A DNA stretch of 64,000 bases from IMG/VR virus record IMGVR_UViG_3300035703_000060, positions 1 to 64,000 of that record; one strand, written 5' to 3'. The translations under genes were made by a program, and so were the position numbers. The stretch comes from a virus. This document shows, in pieces, positions 31,164-46,518 of this stretch (its first letter is position 1; every line of letters starts with the position of its first letter). The notes beneath the pieces are model-generated. The model saw only the letters and a program-made list of their open reading frames with translations, was not told the DNA's origin and did no database searches.

Positions 31164-31592
31164 ATGAAATCTAAAAGTTTTGACTCCTTAGATAATGTGT
31201 TGAACACATCTAGTGAAATGCAGGTTTATGAAGAACCAAAATCCTCAGAAATAAAAACTGTTGATCAATCATCAGTTGACATAAAAAAAGATTATGAGTA
31301 TACGAGAGCCAACCTCTATTCTTTAATTGAGAAGGGTCAGGAGGCGATTGATGGAATTATGGAACTTGCTGCGGAAAGTGATCAACCAAGGGCCTATGAG
31401 GTCGCTGGACAACTTATAAAGAGCGTTGGTGATGTAACTGATAAACTTATAGATCTTCAAAAAAAATTGAAGGATATAGAAGATGAAAATATAAAAACGA
31501 CAAACAATGTTACTAATAATGCAGTGTTTGTCGGATCTACATCAGAGTTATCAAAACTACTGAAGCAAGGTTTTCTAAATAATAAAGAGTAG
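31164..31592 (+). CDS. gp16: Terminase small subunit gp16
   Basis: 142 residues (T4 gp16 164). Mostly helical, with Y-E-Y-T-R-A-N-L-Y-S-L-I-E-K-G-Q-E-A-I (about 46-64) and a coiled-coil-like V-T-D-K-L-I-D-L-Q-K-K-L-K-D-I-E. gp16 forms a ring that stimulates the gp17 packaging motor. In T4 it is followed directly by gp17; here two other genes intervene. Confidence 0.9.
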   Translation: MKSKSFDSLDNVLNTSSEMQVYEEPKSSEIKTVDQSSVDIKKDYEYTRANLYSLIEKGQEAIDGIMELAAESDQPRAYEVAGQLIKSVGDVTDKLIDLQKKLKDIEDENIKTTNNVTNNAVFVGSTSELSKLLKQGFLNNKE

Positions 31593-31606
31593 TTCTTTTT
31601 GATCTG

Positions 31607-33550
31607 ATGGGTTGGTCGGAAAAATATAAAAAATCTATTGATTGCGACAATCCCAAAGGATTTTCACAAAGATCTCATTGTCAAGGTCGTAGAAAAAAAT
31701 TGAAAGAGCAATTTAAATCATTTAAGACAGTTGAACAAATTGCAAAGAAGCATCGTCTTGATGTTTCTTTCATCCAAAGGCAACTTGATATGGGTGAACC
31801 AATTGAACATGAGCATACTAAAGATCATAAATTGGCCATGGAAATTGCTCTTCAACATTTGGATGAAATTCCAGATTATTATACTCGTTTGAAAAAGATG
31901 GAAGCATCTGCAAAAAAAGAACATAAAAAGTTCAAAGATGCTCCCGTTTCTGAAGGTACATTACATCATTGGTATCAAGGTTCTCGCTCAAAGGGGGGGA
32001 AACCAGGATGGGTTCAACCAGATGGGTCACCCTGTGCCAATGAACCAGGTGAAACTAAAACTCCAAAATGTTTTAGTAGTGCAAGATTAAGATCTCTCAA
32101 GAAAAAAGGTAAAAAAGGAATTTCACTTATCAGATCCGCAGTTAGACGTAAGAGACAAAAAGATAAAGGACAACAAGCAAAATCTGGGGCGGCAGCACCA
32201 ACTAATGTTCCAACATTTGCAAAGGGTAAAAAAGATCCTAACTATGTAAAGGCAGAACCAGGAATTAAAGAAGCAATGGAACTTAACGAAGCAAGAAAAG
32301 ACAAACCTGGAAAAGGTAGTGGAACTAAAGATGCTTGCTACCATAAAGTAAAGTCACGATATGATGTTTGGCCAAGTGCATATGCATCTGGAGCACTGGT
32401 TAAATGTCGTAGAGTTGGTGCTTCAAACTGGGGAAATAAATCAGAATCTTTAAACTATGATTGGGATACTCCCATTCGTGAAAGACCAGATAGATATTGC
32501 CCCAAATGCCAAAAACTAGAACTGAGGAGTGAGTGTAAATATGGTCCGAAATATTGGGATATGTTTTCATTACCTGCAGAATTAATTAGTTCAAAAAAAG
32601 ATTTTAATACAACTATGCCACACCCCGGAAATATGCCAGAGGGATACGATCACGAGTACTCAATGGCACGTTCTGAAATCTCTACAATTATTTCAGCAGC
32701 GAAAAGACTTCGTAAAAAAATGGCAAAAGGTGAGGGAAATGTTGAAGCATGGGTACAATCAAAAATTACCAAAGCAGCAGATTATTTAGATTCTGCCGCA
32801 GATTATGTTGATAGTGGTGAAATGAAGGAGCAAGTTGCAGATACTAATGCAATGTCCGACAAAAAACCATTTGATGTCGCAGTGAAAAAAATCATGGACA
32901 GGAAGGATAAAATGACTCCTAAACAGAGAATCATTGCTCTTAAACAAGCAGGAAAATTTCAAGGAGTTGATGAGCAAATGCTTCCACCAATCAATCCCGA
33001 AAAACATAAACAATTGCAAAAAACACAAAAACTTTATAATAAAGGTGCGAGTACAGATAATCCACATGAAAAAGAAATTTTCTTAAAAAGAACTGGACCA
33101 CAATTACCTTTAGCAAAAAGAGAAACTAAAACTCAAGTTGCACATTATGAACCAGAAGGTGAAGTAATTGATGAAAAGTGTTGGCCTGGATATAAAAAGA
33201 AAGGAATGAAAACAATGTTTGGAAAAAGATATCCAAACTGTGTTAAATCGGAAGAGTTCTCTAATTGGAGAGCGGATTTTGGATTATCAGAAGATTGGCA
33301 AAAAGTTAATCGCAAAGATAAGACTGATGGATTGAGCCAAGCAGCAGTTGATGCTTATCGTCGTGAAAATCCAGGATCAAAACTTCAAACTGCGGTAACT
33401 GAAAAGAAACCAAAAGGAAAAAGAGCAAAGCGTCGTGCTAACTTCTGTCGGCGTATGAAAGGCATGAAGTCTAAACTGACTTCTGCAAAGACTGCAAGAG
33501 ATCCAGATTCAAGAATTAATAAAGCACTCCGTCGTTGGAACTGTAACTAA
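31607..33550 (+). CDS. Modular basic Cys-rich protein between terminase subunits
   Basis: 647 residues, strongly basic. Seen as a string of short modules: G-T-L-H-H-W-Y-Q-G-S-R-S-K-G-G with C-F-S-S-A-R-L-R-S-L-K-K-K (about 117-170); C-Y-H-K-V-K-S-R-Y-D-V-W-P-S-A-Y-A-S-G-A and V-K-C (about 243-268), known to me as a recurring module in marine phage proteins; a C-P-K-C site (about 298); a helical E-A-W-V-Q-S-K-I-T-K-A-A-D-Y-L-D-S module (about 382-398); C-W-P-G-Y-K-K-K-G (about 525); and a Cys/Arg-rich end. It also carries A-H-Y-E-P-E-G-E, shared with the protein at 53438. Probably a DNA-binding virion or packaging-associated protein; no catalytic site found. Confidence 0.75.
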   Translation: MGWSEKYKKSIDCDNPKGFSQRSHCQGRRKKLKEQFKSFKTVEQIAKKHRLDVSFIQRQLDMGEPIEHEHTKDHKLAMEIALQHLDEIPDYYTRLKKMEASAKKEHKKFKDAPVSEGTLHHWYQGSRSKGGKPGWVQPDGSPCANEPGETKTPKCFSSARLRSLKKKGKKGISLIRSAVRRKRQKDKGQQAKSGAAAPTNVPTFAKGKKDPNYVKAEPGIKEAMELNEARKDKPGKGSGTKDACYHKVKSRYDVWPSAYASGALVKCRRVGASNWGNKSESLNYDWDTPIRERPDRYCPKCQKLELRSECKYGPKYWDMFSLPAELISSKKDFNTTMPHPGNMPEGYDHEYSMARSEISTIISAAKRLRKKMAKGEGNVEAWVQSKITKAADYLDSAADYVDSGEMKEQVADTNAMSDKKPFDVAVKKIMDRKDKMTPKQRIIALKQAGKFQGVDEQMLPPINPEKHKQLQKTQKLYNKGASTDNPHEKEIFLKRTGPQLPLAKRETKTQVAHYEPEGEVIDEKCWPGYKKKGMKTMFGKRYPNCVKSEEFSNWRADFGLSEDWQKVNRKDKTDGLSQAAVDAYRRENPGSKLQTAVTEKKPKGKRAKRRANFCRRMKGMKSKLTSAKTARDPDSRINKALRRWNCN

Positions 33551-33551
33551 G

Positions 33552-33866
33552 ATGAAATCTTTTCAACAATTTCTATCAGAAAGTATCAATATTGCTGGAG
33601 ATTTTAATGGAAATCTCTATATGAATTCTGGATCTCAACCAGAACAAGCAACAGAATCTTTCCTTGCTGATGTAGTTTGGCAAGGTAAATTATATCGTAT
33701 GGAAGTAGAGGGTTCTATGATAGATAAGAATTCTCTTACGGAACAACTTCAAGGAGAATATCCTGGAGCAATTGTTCATAATGTTTATCCAGTACAATCT
33801 CAAAGTTCTTTAAGAATTAAAAATACACAAAGATATCAACCAGAAAGACTCACTTGGACTGATTAA
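33552..33866 (+). CDS. Small protein with capsid-targeting-like N-terminus
   Basis: 104 residues beginning M-K-S-F-Q-Q-F-L-S-E-S. This closely matches the T4 internal-protein capsid-targeting signal (M-K-T-Y-Q-E-F-I-x-E-A), and L-S-E fits the [IL]-x-E cut site of gp21-type proteases. Maturation would leave about 94 residues. The rest is alpha/beta with no known domain (V-V-W-Q-G-K-L-Y-R-M-E-V-E-G-S in the middle). Lying in the packaging cluster, it is a candidate internal head protein. The start follows the previous stop by 1 nt. Confidence 0.65.
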   Translation: MKSFQQFLSESINIAGDFNGNLYMNSGSQPEQATESFLADVVWQGKLYRMEVEGSMIDKNSLTEQLQGEYPGAIVHNVYPVQSQSSLRIKNTQRYQPERLTWTD

Positions 33867-42212: not shown

Positions 42213-42863
42213 ATGAAACTCATCACAGAAGAAGTATCACAAGTAAAATTTATCACCGAAGGAAAAGGTTCTCAGAAAAAACTGTATATTGAAGGAGTTT
42301 TTCTTCAAGGTGATATTTGTAATCGCAATGGAAGAATGTATCCAATGGAGACACTCTCCCGCGAGGTAAAAAGATATACAGAATCTTTTATTAACAAGGG
42401 TCGTGCTCTTGGAGAACTTGGACACCCAGATGGTCCAACAGTAAACCTTGATCGAGTTTCTCATAAAATTGTTTCTCTTACTCAAGAGGGATCTAATTTT
42501 AGAGGTAAAGCACAACTTCTCGAAACTCCAATGGGCAAGATTGCAAAATCTCTTATTGATGAAGGAGTTTGTCTTGGTGTTTCTTCTCGTGGTGTTGGTT
42601 CACTCAAAATGACCAATGAAGGTCACAAAATTGTTGGTGAAGATTTCATGCTTGCTACTGCAGCTGATATCGTTGCCGATCCTTCTGCTCCTGATGCTTT
42701 TGTTCAGGGAATTATGGAAGGTAAAGAGTGGGTATGGGAAGGCGGAATTCTTCGTGAGCAACTTGCAGAATCTACAAAACGTAGAATTAATACTTTAGTT
42801 GATGAAAGAATACTTCAAGAATATAAAGTTGAGTTGTTCCAAGAGTTTCTCTCAAATCTTTAA
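42213..42863 (+). CDS. gp21: Prohead core protease gp21
   Basis: 216 residues (T4 gp21 212), a herpes-assemblin-like serine protease. Active-site His is H71 in L-G-E-L-G-H-P-D-G-P and the nucleophile Ser lies in G-V-S-S-R-G (S124/S125). It degrades the scaffold and trims gp23 and internal proteins at [IL]-x-E sites before DNA packaging. Overlap-free, 4 nt after the preceding gene. Candidate substrates in this window: gp23, gp22, gp67-like, and the two proteins with capsid-targeting-like N-termini. Confidence 0.95.
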   Translation: MKLITEEVSQVKFITEGKGSQKKLYIEGVFLQGDICNRNGRMYPMETLSREVKRYTESFINKGRALGELGHPDGPTVNLDRVSHKIVSLTQEGSNFRGKAQLLETPMGKIAKSLIDEGVCLGVSSRGVGSLKMTNEGHKIVGEDFMLATAADIVADPSAPDAFVQGIMEGKEWVWEGGILREQLAESTKRRINTLVDERILQEYKVELFQEFLSNL

Positions 42864-42905: not shown

Positions 42906-44030
42906 ATGTCCGTTGGTAGAAATTTACAAGAAATGGAAAACGTAGTAACCAAAGGTGCTGCACCTGCCGAACCAATGCACAACACCTCACAGAATGCATC
43001 TGGAGTTGCTACTCCAGGTCAAACTGGTGCTTGGGAAGATTTAGGTGGACCTACTCCAGAAAATTATCGTCCAGATGATGATTCTGCAAAACTCAAGGAT
43101 CCATCAGCGACTCTTGCCCAAGTAAGAGATGTTGTAAATGCTAAGGCAGCAGCAGTTAAAGAAGAAGTTGTTGACGAAGAGGAAGACGTAATTTCTGAAG
43201 AGGAAGAAGTTGAAGAAGAAGACTTAGAGGCAGAAATAGAAGAAGAAGAAGCAGCAGAAGAAAGCGAAGAAGAAGTAGTTGCAGAAGAAGAGTTTGATAT
43301 CGAAGAAGATGTCAATGCTCTCCTCGCTGGTGAAGAGCTTTCCGAGGAATTCCAAGAGAAAGCACGCACCATCTTCGAAGCTGCTATCCGTTCAAAAGTT
43401 TCTGAAATCAAAGAAGAACTTCAAGAGACTTATGAAAATGCACTTATTGAAGAAGTTCAGTTCATTAAAGAAGAATTAACTGAGCGTTTAGACGCTTATC
43501 TTGAGTACGTTGCCGATGAGTGGATTCAAGAGAATGCACTCGCCATCGAGCACGGTCTCAAGACTGAGATGACCGAATCATTCCTTCAAGGAATGAGAGG
43601 TCTTTTTGAAGATCATTATGTTTCAATCCCTGAAGATAGATATGATGTAATCGAGAGCATGGTAGATAAACTTGATGAAATGGAAGAAAAACTCAACGAG
43701 CAAATCGAAAGAAACGTTGCTCTGAACAGAAGATTAGCCGAGTCGGTTGCCGATGTAATCTTTGCAGATGTCGCTGAGGGTCTCGCACTTTCTCAGAAGG
43801 ACAAACTCGCTTCTCTTGCAGAAAATGTTGAGTTTGATGGTGAAGAGAACTATCGTGAGAAACTGGTAACTCTGAGGGAATCATATTTCCCAACCAGAAG
43901 TGCTGGTACTCAAAGAGATGACTCTGAAACTTTATCTGAGTCTGTTTCCTATGATACAAATTTAACTGAATCTGTATCACCTTCTATGGAAGCATATCTT
44001 CAGACTCTTAGCAGAGTCGCTAAAAAGTGA
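42906..44030 (+). CDS. gp22: Prohead core scaffold gp22
   Basis: 374 residues (T4 gp22 269). Very acidic: residues about 86-135 are mostly Glu and Asp, followed by long amphipathic helices rich in E, K and L, as expected of a scaffold removed by gp21. The N-terminal 70 residues are disordered-looking and have P-G-Q-T-G-A-W-E-D-L-G-G-P-T-P. Its place between gp21 and gp23 is conserved. Codon and base composition are less AT-rich than in the tail genes. Confidence 0.93.
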   Translation: MSVGRNLQEMENVVTKGAAPAEPMHNTSQNASGVATPGQTGAWEDLGGPTPENYRPDDDSAKLKDPSATLAQVRDVVNAKAAAVKEEVVDEEEDVISEEEEVEEEDLEAEIEEEEAAEESEEEVVAEEEFDIEEDVNALLAGEELSEEFQEKARTIFEAAIRSKVSEIKEELQETYENALIEEVQFIKEELTERLDAYLEYVADEWIQENALAIEHGLKTEMTESFLQGMRGLFEDHYVSIPEDRYDVIESMVDKLDEMEEKLNEQIERNVALNRRLAESVADVIFADVAEGLALSQKDKLASLAENVEFDGEENYREKLVTLRESYFPTRSAGTQRDDSETLSESVSYDTNLTESVSPSMEAYLQTLSRVAKK

Positions 44031-44080: not shown

Positions 44081-45490
44081 ATGCAAATGTTCAACGCAGA
44101 ATATTTGCAGGAGAAGTGGGCACCTATCCTGGACTACTCAGGACTCGATGAAATCAAAGATTCACATCGTAGAGCTGTAACCGCTATCCTGCTCGAAAAC
44201 CAAGAAAAGGAACTTCGTGAAGCACGCGAATTCCTTTATGAAGCTCCAACCAACTTCACTGCATCTGGTGCAAGTGGTGCTGGTTTTGGTGGTAGTGCTC
44301 AAGGTTTTAGTGCTGGTCCTACCGCAGGTTTCGACCCTGTTCTGATCAGCCTCATTCGCCGTTCAATGCCCAACCTGATCGCTTATGATCTGTGCGGCGT
44401 TCAACCAATGAATGGTCCTACTGGACTCATCTTCGCAATGCGTTCCCGCTACAATAACCAAAGCGGAACTGAAGCATTCTTCAACGAAGTAGATTCTGCA
44501 TTCTCTGGTCAAGATTCTGGATTTAATGTTACTAGTGGATTCACCGCTGGTAGCGTTGGTATGGGTACTACCACACAGCAAGGTACTAATCCTGGTATCC
44601 TTGATGGTACTGCTCCACAAACTGGTGACGCAACTACCTACAACGTAGGTCAGGGTATGCGTACAGACTCTGCAGAAGACCTTGGACAAGGTTCTGGTGA
44701 TCACTTCAACCAGATGGCATTCTCAATCGAGAAGGTCACTGTAACTGCAAAGTCACGCGCACTGAAGGCTGAGTATTCATTAGAACTCGCTCAAGACCTC
44801 AAGGCAATTCATGGTCTGAATGCAGAAGCTGAGTTGGCAAACATTCTGTCAACTGAGATTCTTGCTGAAATCAACCGTGAAATCATTCGTACCATCTACA
44901 ACGTCGCTAAGCCTGGTGCTCAAGCAAACGTTGCAACCTCTGGTACTTTTGACCTTGACGTTGATTCAAACGGTCGTTGGTCTGTTGAGAAGTTCAAGGG
45001 TCTTATCTTCCAAATCGAGCGCGACGCTAACGCGATTGCACAAACAACTCGTAGAGGAAAGGGTAACATGATCCTCTGCTCTGCTGACGTTGCTTCGGCA
45101 CTCACCATGGCAGGTGTTCTTGACTACACCCCAGCACTCAACGCTAACCTGAACGTTGATGACACTGGTAACACCTTCGCAGGTGTTCTCCAAGGTAAGT
45201 ATCGCGTATATATCGATCCTTATGCTGCTAACGTATCTGCTAACCAGTTCTACGTTGTAGGTTATAAGGGTTCTTCACCTTATGATGCAGGTCTCTTCTA
45301 CTGCCCATATGTTCCTCTCCAAATGGTTCGTGCCGTTGGTGAGAACACCTTCCAGCCCAAGATTGGCTTTAAGACCCGTTACGGTCTTGTTGCCAACCCA
45401 TTTGCTGAAGGTGCAACTGTTGGTCAAGGTGCTCTTAACCGTAACGCTAACGCTTACTACAGAAGAGTCAAAGTGACCAATTTAATGTGA
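44081..45490 (+). CDS. gp23: Major capsid protein gp23
   Basis: 469 residues (T4 gp23 521). HK97-fold family features: R-R-S-M-P-N-L-I-A-Y-D-L-C-G-V-Q-P-M, then T-G-L-I-F-A-M-R-S-R-Y, and the C-terminal Y-G-L-V-A-N-P-F. The expected gp21 cut site is F-L-Y-E54/A55, equivalent to E65/A66 in T4. A good AGAGGT ribosome site sits 10 nt upstream and the gene is markedly more GC-rich than the tail genes (31/60 in 45121-45180). No exact late box was found in the 50-nt gap upstream, so it may be read from the gp22 promoter. Confidence 0.98.
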   Translation: MQMFNAEYLQEKWAPILDYSGLDEIKDSHRRAVTAILLENQEKELREAREFLYEAPTNFTASGASGAGFGGSAQGFSAGPTAGFDPVLISLIRRSMPNLIAYDLCGVQPMNGPTGLIFAMRSRYNNQSGTEAFFNEVDSAFSGQDSGFNVTSGFTAGSVGMGTTTQQGTNPGILDGTAPQTGDATTYNVGQGMRTDSAEDLGQGSGDHFNQMAFSIEKVTVTAKSRALKAEYSLELAQDLKAIHGLNAEAELANILSTEILAEINREIIRTIYNVAKPGAQANVATSGTFDLDVDSNGRWSVEKFKGLIFQIERDANAIAQTTRRGKGNMILCSADVASALTMAGVLDYTPALNANLNVDDTGNTFAGVLQGKYRVYIDPYAANVSANQFYVVGYKGSSPYDAGLFYCPYVPLQMVRAVGENTFQPKIGFKTRYGLVANPFAEGATVGQGALNRNANAYYRRVKVTNLM

Positions 45491-45510: not shown

Positions 45511-45538
45511 AGACCTCCCGAAAGGGGGGTCTTTTTTT
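45511..45538 (+). terminator. Rho-independent terminator after gp23
   Basis: 9-bp stem AGACCTCCC / GGGGGGTCT (one G-T pair), GAAA tetraloop at 45520-45523, then a run of T. This is the strongest intrinsic terminator in the window and closes the head gene cluster. Confidence 0.93.
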
Positions 45539-45559
45539 ATCTAAATAAAAATAAAAAGA

Positions 45560-45973
45560 ATGAAGACTTTTAAGCAGTTTATATCTGAAGCATTACCATT
45601 TGGTGCTGTAGTATCAACTAGTTCTTATGGTCCAGGATTATATGGAAATCCTACTGCATCTGGTGCAAAATTAACTCCATCAACTAGAGGGGTTGCACAT
45701 AAAACTTTACCTCTTGGAAGTCAGGTAAGAATTACAGATCCCAAAACAAAAAGATCAATAACTGCTCCAGTCGTTGATAGAGGACCTTATCATGGAAATC
45801 GCCAATACGACTTAACTACAAAAACAACACAAGATCTTGGATATAAAGACTATAAACAATTTGGTGTTAGAGATCTTGACGTAACACCTATAAAACCAAA
45901 ACCAAAAGTTCCAGATTTGGGTGTAAAGGTTGATATGAGTGTTCCAAAAATTGTTCCAACTAAGAAAAGATAA
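45560..45973 (+). CDS. RlpA-like double-psi beta-barrel protein with capsid-targeting-like N-terminus
   Basis: 137 residues. Residues 1-11 are M-K-T-F-K-Q-F-I-S-E-A, almost the T4 capsid-targeting signal, with an I-S-E/A site suited to gp21. Residues about 18-108 are an RlpA-type barrel: S-S-Y-G-P-G-L-Y-G-N-P-T-A-S-G, A-H-K-T-L-P-L-G (H47), V-V-D-R-G-P-Y (D73), Y-D-L-T. RlpA proteins bind or cleave naked peptidoglycan glycans. The Glu normally following T-A-[NS]-G is Ala here (A36), so catalysis may be altered. A basic Pro/Lys tail follows. It probably rides in the head and acts on the host wall at entry, or acts at lysis (inference). Confidence 0.78.
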   Translation: MKTFKQFISEALPFGAVVSTSSYGPGLYGNPTASGAKLTPSTRGVAHKTLPLGSQVRITDPKTKRSITAPVVDRGPYHGNRQYDLTTKTTQDLGYKDYKQFGVRDLDVTPIKPKPKVPDLGVKVDMSVPKIVPTKKR

Positions 45974-46518
45974 TGGCAACTTCACCATTCAATAAACAAT
46001 TACAAAATAGAAACTTTCTATCCCCAGTAGGATTTGAATTTTCTTTGGCAAAGTATCCAAAAGTTTCCTTTTTTTGTAACTCTGCAAAAATTCCACAAAT
46101 ATCATTGCAAACTGAAATTCAATCCACTTATTTAAAGCAAATTGACATTCCTGGTGACCAATTAACATATTCCGATTTAACATTAAGATTTTTAGTTGAT
46201 GAAGATTTAGTTAATTATAAAACTGTGCATAACTGGTTAACTTCTCTTGGATTTCCAGAAACAGCAGATCAATATGCAAGTCAATTGAATGAAAATGGAA
46301 TTAGAGACCCTTTAAATTTTTTCAGTGATGGTACTTTGATTATTTTAAATAGCAATTATAATCCAAAAGCACAAGTAAAATTTAAAGACCTTTTTCCAGT
46401 TTCTTTAACTTCTTTAGATTTTGATTCTACAGCAACAGACATACAATACTTTACGGCAGAGGTATCTTTCAAGTATACTGTCTATAATATCCTTAACATG
46501 CAAAATAAACCATTATGA
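45973..46518 (+). CDS. gp3: Tail completion / sheath stabiliser protein, gp3-like
   Basis: 181 residues (T4 gp3 176). Starts MATSPFNKQLQNRNFLSPVG, then S-F-F-C-N-S-A-K-I-P-Q-I-S-L and F-L-V-D-E-D-L-V-N-Y. The S-A-K-I-P stretch is reminiscent of tail-tube-fold proteins. The slot between gp23 and uvsY is where cyanophage annotations usually put gp3, the tail-tube terminator. Assignment depends largely on that order; a different tube-fold protein (gp54-like) is the alternative. One-nt overlap with the preceding gene, 4-nt overlap with uvsY. Confidence 0.6.
   Translation: MATSPFNKQLQNRNFLSPVGFEFSLAKYPKVSFFCNSAKIPQISLQTEIQSTYLKQIDIPGDQLTYSDLTLRFLVDEDLVNYKTVHNWLTSLGFPETADQYASQLNENGIRDPLNFFSDGTLIILNSNYNPKAQVKFKDLFPVSLTSLDFDSTATDIQYFTAEVSFKYTVYNILNMQNKPL

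Follow-up and report, generated by a model that had tools for sequence, protein, structure and literature searches.

The protein encoded by ORF 45560-45973 of a T4-like cyanophage would be a T4-type tagged internal head protein whose new part is its cargo, an RlpA-type barrel, and storage of a wall protein in the head would be a novelty among T4-like myoviruses. The window that we analyzed is a stretch of 64,000 nt from a 74.5-kb virus record. The source virus is a T4-like cyanophage, and the gene order gp17-18-19-20-21-22-23-(ORF 45560-45973)-gp3-uvsY-uvsW matches that of Synechococcus phages S-SRM01, S-CAM9, and S-RIM8. Within this order the ORF (+ strand, ATG to TAA) is a stand-alone 137-aa gene between gp23 and gp3 and not a hub or baseplate domain, and its product is basic (pI 10.1) with the N-terminus MKTFKQFISEA. 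A gp21 protease gene lies directly upstream, as the original prediction had it, together with genes for a gp22-type scaffold and gp23, whose own processing site, judged from its sequence, is likely LYE-54, followed by APT. Coordinates are collected in Table 1.

Table 1. Features of the tagged barrel gene, its surroundings, and a second tagged gene in the window
Feature	Position (strand)	Details
Second tagged protein, MKSFQQFLSES, 104 aa	33552..33866 (+)	Conserved in T4-like cyanophages
gp21-type prohead protease (S77), presumed processing enzyme	42213..42863 (+)	PF03420 E=7.8e-37; PHROG head maturation protease
gp22-type prohead core scaffold, presumed tag docking partner	42906..44030 (+)	PF25623 E=2.2e-80; 22 [LI]xE sites
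gp23 major capsid protein	44081..45490 (+)	PF07068 E=8e-154
Intrinsic terminator behind gp23	45511..45532 (+)	9-pair stem, T-run
CTAAATA, T4-type late-promoter-like motif	45541..45547 (+)	12 nt before ATG of ORF 45560-45973; putative promoter
Capsid-targeting sequence MKTFKQFISEA, codons 1-11	45560..45592 (+)	Predicted gp21 cut after codon 10
Relaxed linker, residues 12-19	45593..45616 (+)	dN/dS 0.446
RlpA-type double-psi beta barrel, residues 20-111 (A36, H47, D73)	45617..45892 (+)	PF03330, AF2, Foldseek
Lys/Pro-rich disordered C-terminal tail, net charge +6	45893..45970 (+)	pLDDT below 50
gp3-like tail completion protein, right border of cargo slot	45973..46518 (+)	PHROG tail tube E=2.6e-43; named gp3-type in S-SRM01

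An IMG/VR scan for relatives of the barrel protein yielded 80 loci, from which 52 distinct complete proteins were compared. We rejected a wrong start codon, since the relatives begin at the same start, which in several of them is GTG instead of ATG, and some have a stop codon a short way upstream. TAAATA was found no more than 60 nt upstream of the barrel gene in 52 of the 80 relatives; among 12 listed relatives without it, most have a 52-aa gene in between. The full CTAAATA occurs only twice in the window, and its other copy precedes 31575-33550, which encodes a 647-aa DUF5661/DUF6321 protein.

Residues 1-11 had been predicted to nearly equal the T4 capsid-targeting signal and to end in an [IL]-x-E site, and comparison with the T4 internal proteins (IPs) bore this out: IPII and IPIII both begin MKTYQEFIAEA and IPI begins MKTFKEFTSTT. 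In the T4 tag, residues 4 and 7 serve targeting and residues 8 and 10 serve processing, and Asp at position 10 stops cutting but not targeting (PMC9026906). The cyanophage protein shares with IPI, IPII, and IPIII an N-terminal tag of 10 residues with aromatics at 4 and 7, an aliphatic residue at 8, and Glu at 10, and like them it is a small basic protein, putatively late, of a phage encoding gp21 and a gp22-type scaffold. Unlike the T4 IPs, it carries an RlpA-type barrel instead of an anti-restriction protein, its gene is placed between gp23 and gp3, and its packaging is a prediction. No hydrophobic core, lipobox, or signal peptide was seen at the N-terminus, and the AlphaFold2 model has a helix at residues 4-10. 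Among open-licence papers, our literature search found none reporting the tag in cyanophages.

The N-terminal signal is retained among the homologues: position 4 is Phe in 51 of the 52 relatives and Tyr in the other, and position 7 is Phe in every one. Position 10 is Glu in 48, and 46 relatives fit at both processing positions (8 and 10). The six relatives that keep the targeting residues only (MKTF[KR][EQ]FQE...) have lost the processing residues and would stay uncut; these loci (L055, L060, L067, L071, L075, and L076, with FQEQ or FQEE) offer a natural test of targeting without cleavage. Comparison of dN/dS values placed the strongest protein-level constraint in the tag (0.072), with 0.235 for the barrel and the linker as given in Table 1. 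Synonymous sites of the tag have diverged strongly (pS 0.69), which rules out constraint at the DNA level rather than the protein level. A gene would match the strict N-terminus MK.[FYW]..[FYW][ILVMF].E at random with a probability of ∼1e-5, or ∼9e-4 over ∼75 genes, and only two ORFs in the window match it, 45560-45973 and 33552-33866. On this low probability per window, together with the conservation and constraint of the tag, we rejected a chance match.

The tag also behaves as a module. When we compared 125 gp23-gp3 intervals, the slot held the RlpA-type barrel protein in 71 and was empty in many related phages, and searching next to gp23 recovered other tagged cargos too. These included a 56-61 aa protein (MK[ST]FQ...), found also in cultured S-SRM01, a 76-78 aa protein (MKTFKQFINEAVGDP...), two further cargos (loci L255 and L315), and a protein of 207-216 aa (MKTFREFCEDA...) in which the C-terminal part is distantly related to the same barrel (hhalign E=2.7e-4, probability 42%). 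This second barrel (L125:1634, L129:3363, and L162:836) is found by no Pfam model and has a conserved Asp. Since unrelated proteins with the same tag fill the slot in other phages, we regard the tag as a module; the cellular relatives of the barrel (66 loci) align from residue 17 or later, save one that aligns from residue 8. In some slots the barrel gene is preceded by a further gene of 51-52 aa without the tag (MKPTPRQSQEI...; L016:4846, L003:4846, and others), and some contain endonuclease-like insertions.

The site after ISE-10, at which A11 follows, is the sole [LI]xE site of the 137-aa protein, and the segment from the predicted cut, A11-K37, reads ALPFGAVVSTSSYGPGLYGNPTASGAK. In the mature part of the 52 relatives we found no further [LI]xE sites, where shuffling led us to expect 7.9, a descriptive figure since the sequences are related. 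This absence, along with the stable fold and the conserved cleft residues, weighs against the idea that the protein is brought to the prohead core by its N-terminus for assembly only and is not ejected in active form. T4 core proteins gp22, gp67, and gp68 are indeed cut up in the head (PMC5694885), some tagged small proteins went undetected in virions, and the empty slot of many related phages means that the cargo is dispensable; on balance, we consider a role confined to assembly improbable.

To relate the tag to virion content, we used published proteomes. The S-CREM2 virion proteome comprises 52 proteins (PMC10665884 Table 3). We trained a tag profile on the barrel proteins and T4, leaving S-CREM2 out, and scored all 219 S-CREM2 CDS with it. 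The six highest-scoring products (ORFs 154, 6, 14, 136, 143, and 13) were all virion proteins, with a gap after the sixth, and five of them are not classed as structural: a cytidylyltransferase, a SAM hydrolase, an APH-like kinase, and two hypotheticals. For these five the hypergeometric p was 3e-5, with the cut at five chosen after the ranking was seen. Across all N-termini, rank-sum tests gave no significant difference (p=0.07-0.24), so the signal lies only in the top-scoring tail. The Cas9-like virion protein of S-CREM2 has ..LRFASFMAEAA at residues 17-27. The SAM hydrolase, kinase, Cas9-like nuclease, and cytidylyltransferase among the S-CREM2 virion enzymes (L168 ORFs 6, 12, 13, 14, and 15; L103 ORFs 136 and 154) all have tag-like N-termini; the tagged kinase has a GTG start. 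The authors of that study left undecided whether the virion enzymes are encapsulated cargo or contamination, and the tag favors encapsulation.

S-SCSM1 has two genes with a clear tag, an NMNAT (MKSFLQFLKEA) that is in the virion and SSCSM1_30, which was not detected by MS. The S-SZBM1 cytidylyltransferase was detected in the virion and starts MRFRQFIIEA, one residue out of register, and the exact tag matches of this phage, the small proteins SSZBM1_191 and SSZBM1_192, were not detected by MS. The tag is no perfect predictor of virion presence given these three undetected small proteins, and its association with virions is strong for enzymes and imperfect for small proteins.

Further tagged genes were encountered along the way. 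At least 135 phage records, all of them cyanophages judging by their names, contain homologues of the second tagged gene of the window, at 33552-33866; the protein has no known domain, and its homologue was absent from the proteins detected in S-SCSM1 and S-SZBM1 virions. SSZBM1_192, which starts with the tag MKTFKQYITEA, is a relative of the C-terminal part of the DUF5661/DUF6321 protein. A tagged HiPIP-like iron-sulfur protein (L090:1501, S-SRM01 47292) and a tagged GNAT acetyltransferase (L092:1501, S-CRM01 139045) are candidate head cargos of cultured cyanophages. T4 gp61.1 (L102:967-1131), a 54-aa protein of unknown function, has the tag-like start MKTFKEFIKED, in which Asp comes after Glu10, and is a candidate unrecognized T4 internal protein. 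An IMG/VR scan with the tag gave at least 82 matches in at least 80 loci. Among the matches listed, 33 belong to a single cluster represented by a cytidylyltransferase, and only 22 of the 80 loci listed show a window homologue in the stretch analyzed, so that for most the phage type is presumed.

The remainder of the protein had been described as an RlpA-type double-psi barrel, which held for the fold but not for residues 112-137, a disordered Lys/Pro tail in the AlphaFold2 model. PF03330 matches residues 27-96 above the Pfam cut-off (E=5e-10), and the best phmmer match is P. aeruginosa PA4485 (4avr, E=3.9e-12), followed by a baseplate protein of cyanophage A-1(L). In the AlphaFold2 model the barrel spans about residues 16-111, with most blocks at pLDDT 83-91. 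Foldseek with this model likewise placed PA4485 first (4avr, E=3.6e-10, TMt 0.87), then the A-1(L) baseplate protein (8kea), then loosenin and expansins; the Streptomyces papain inhibitor and kiwellin were also among the fold matches. Like the bacterial septal lytic transglycosylase RlpA (PF03330, TIGR00413), the protein has the double-psi barrel and the TASG, AHK-LPLG, and DRGPY motifs, and it keeps the Asp and His. Unlike RlpA, it has a capsid tag in place of a lipobox or signal peptide. A second Pfam domain was not found in the 137 aa, nor was a SPOR or other wall-binding domain seen, and the RlpA family score was 46 bits, below the cut-offs of 82 and 201 (TIGR00413/PRK10672). RlpA proper is ruled out by this score and by the missing export signal and SPOR domain.

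None of the other phage RlpAs that we examined bears the tag; in most cases they carry a lipobox or export signal, or else they are parts of a tail protein. The exported ones (S-PM2p158, S-CREM1, S-CRM01, phiM12, and OLIVR5) are also stand-alone barrels of similar size, but they carry an export signal or lipobox and no tag, lie mostly away from head genes, and in most cases have Glu after TA[NS]G. The same barrel is present in cyanophage particles in the hub of A-1(L) (8kea) and in S-CBWM1 gp134, where it is a domain of a large baseplate or tail protein, whereas ours is a free protein predicted to be in the head. Such hub domains, and exported barrels such as those of S-PM2 and S-CREM1, would suit a wall protein that serves lysis or is associated with the tail, the likeness of its N-terminus to the T4 tag being a coincidence or having some other cause. 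With no signal peptide, and with a tag that is rarely expected by chance in such a window, conserved, constrained, and swapped among cargos, we consider this explanation very improbable.

Head targeting by a T4-type capsid-targeting sequence is, by contrast, well supported by sequence comparison, given the motif positions, the selection on the tag, the swapping of cargo in the slot, and the agreement with the S-CREM2 proteome.

What the barrel would do after delivery is less firmly indicated. Residues A36, H47, and D73 are present as the original prediction stated. Asp73 is invariant in the phage family (52 relatives) and in the 66 cellular relatives. His47 occurs in 48 of the 52 phage relatives, the other four having Asn or Ser; of the 66 cellular ones, 50 have His and 15 have Asn. 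At position 36 the phage family has Q, A, E, S, or T, and the cellular relatives have mostly G or Q and otherwise V or E, so that the Glu said to be expected there is not conserved even in the closest cellular relatives. Because position 36 varies freely, Ala36 is no argument for a binder: the suggestion that the protein binds glycans more than it cuts them does not follow with Asp73 invariant and His47 nearly so, and we likewise rejected the notion that A36 means non-catalytic. A literature search on RlpA catalytic residues found no paper. From its sequence, the barrel may cut glycan or only bind it.

The invariant Asp, the near-invariant His, and the cleft residues common to bacterial RlpA, as well as the second, divergent barrel with a conserved Asp in the same slot of other phages, speak against the protein being head cargo but not a wall enzyme, that is, a barrel put to another use, after injection, as inhibitor or binder of some cytoplasmic protein of the host, like T4 IPI. 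In favor of such a role, gmrSD is inhibited by IPI and IPIII functions in the cytoplasm (PMC9391042), inhibitors and elicitors with the barrel fold exist (the papain inhibitor and kiwellin), and the loss of His47 in four relatives would fit. We judge a cytoplasmic role in general unlikely, and this injected inhibitor or binder in particular quite unlikely.

Our best explanation, which we hold to be probable, is a late-made internal head protein that is ejected with the genome and acts on the wall for entry. ORF 45560-45973 would be made late as an internal head protein, residues 1-10 would fold as a short helix and bind the gp22-type prohead core as in T4, gp21 would cut after Glu10, and the 127-residue barrel protein would remain among the packaged DNA. 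At infection it would exit through the tail with the genome and, in the envelope, most likely bind or cleave peptidoglycan glycan strands, aiding genome entry. The sequence itself shows the tag with its constraint and modularity, the barrel, the catalytic-type Asp and His, and the co-encoded gp21 and gp22; packaging, cleavage, ejection, and wall action are what we infer. Peptidoglycan action taken by itself is plausible, with an even chance of being right, and would be slightly favored if the protein is targeted to the head. A counterpoint to wall action is that T4 IPs of known function act in the cytoplasm, without peptidoglycan, and counting against the head or wall reading are the three undetected small proteins, the relatives that lost His47 (4/52) or the cleavage residues (6/52), and the missing SPOR or other wall-binding domain.

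A works-like precedent is T7 gp16, a head-stored protein with a peptidoglycan-hydrolase domain that is ejected at infection (PMC8954989). Unlike our protein, gp16 is a 1318-aa podovirus core protein, yet as a precedent it means that a head-to-wall route is not fantastic. The N-terminal hydrolase domain of gp16 differs in fold from the RlpA-type barrel. The original proposal of a head-stored, injected peptidoglycan-acting protein is partly supported, and such a protein would not be wholly unlike known systems.

Taken together, these results suggest that T4-like cyanophages have conserved the T4 loading tag and that it can be recognized from sequence. We tentatively propose, at somewhat less than an even chance, that in these phages the 10-residue tag is a general loading code for head enzymes and that this phage group delivers a peptidoglycan-acting barrel with its genome. 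The proposed tag-loaded enzymes are cytidylyltransferase/NMNAT, SAM hydrolase, kinase, Cas9-like nuclease, GNAT, and the HiPIP-like Fe-S protein. If true, this would explain why SAM hydrolase, kinases, and NMNAT recur in cyanophage virion preparations, and the head cargo of abundant aquatic phages would become predictable and testable. To our knowledge, no head-delivered wall-entry device is known in T4-like myoviruses, and a possible head-delivered wall enzyme would be added to the contractile-tailed phages.
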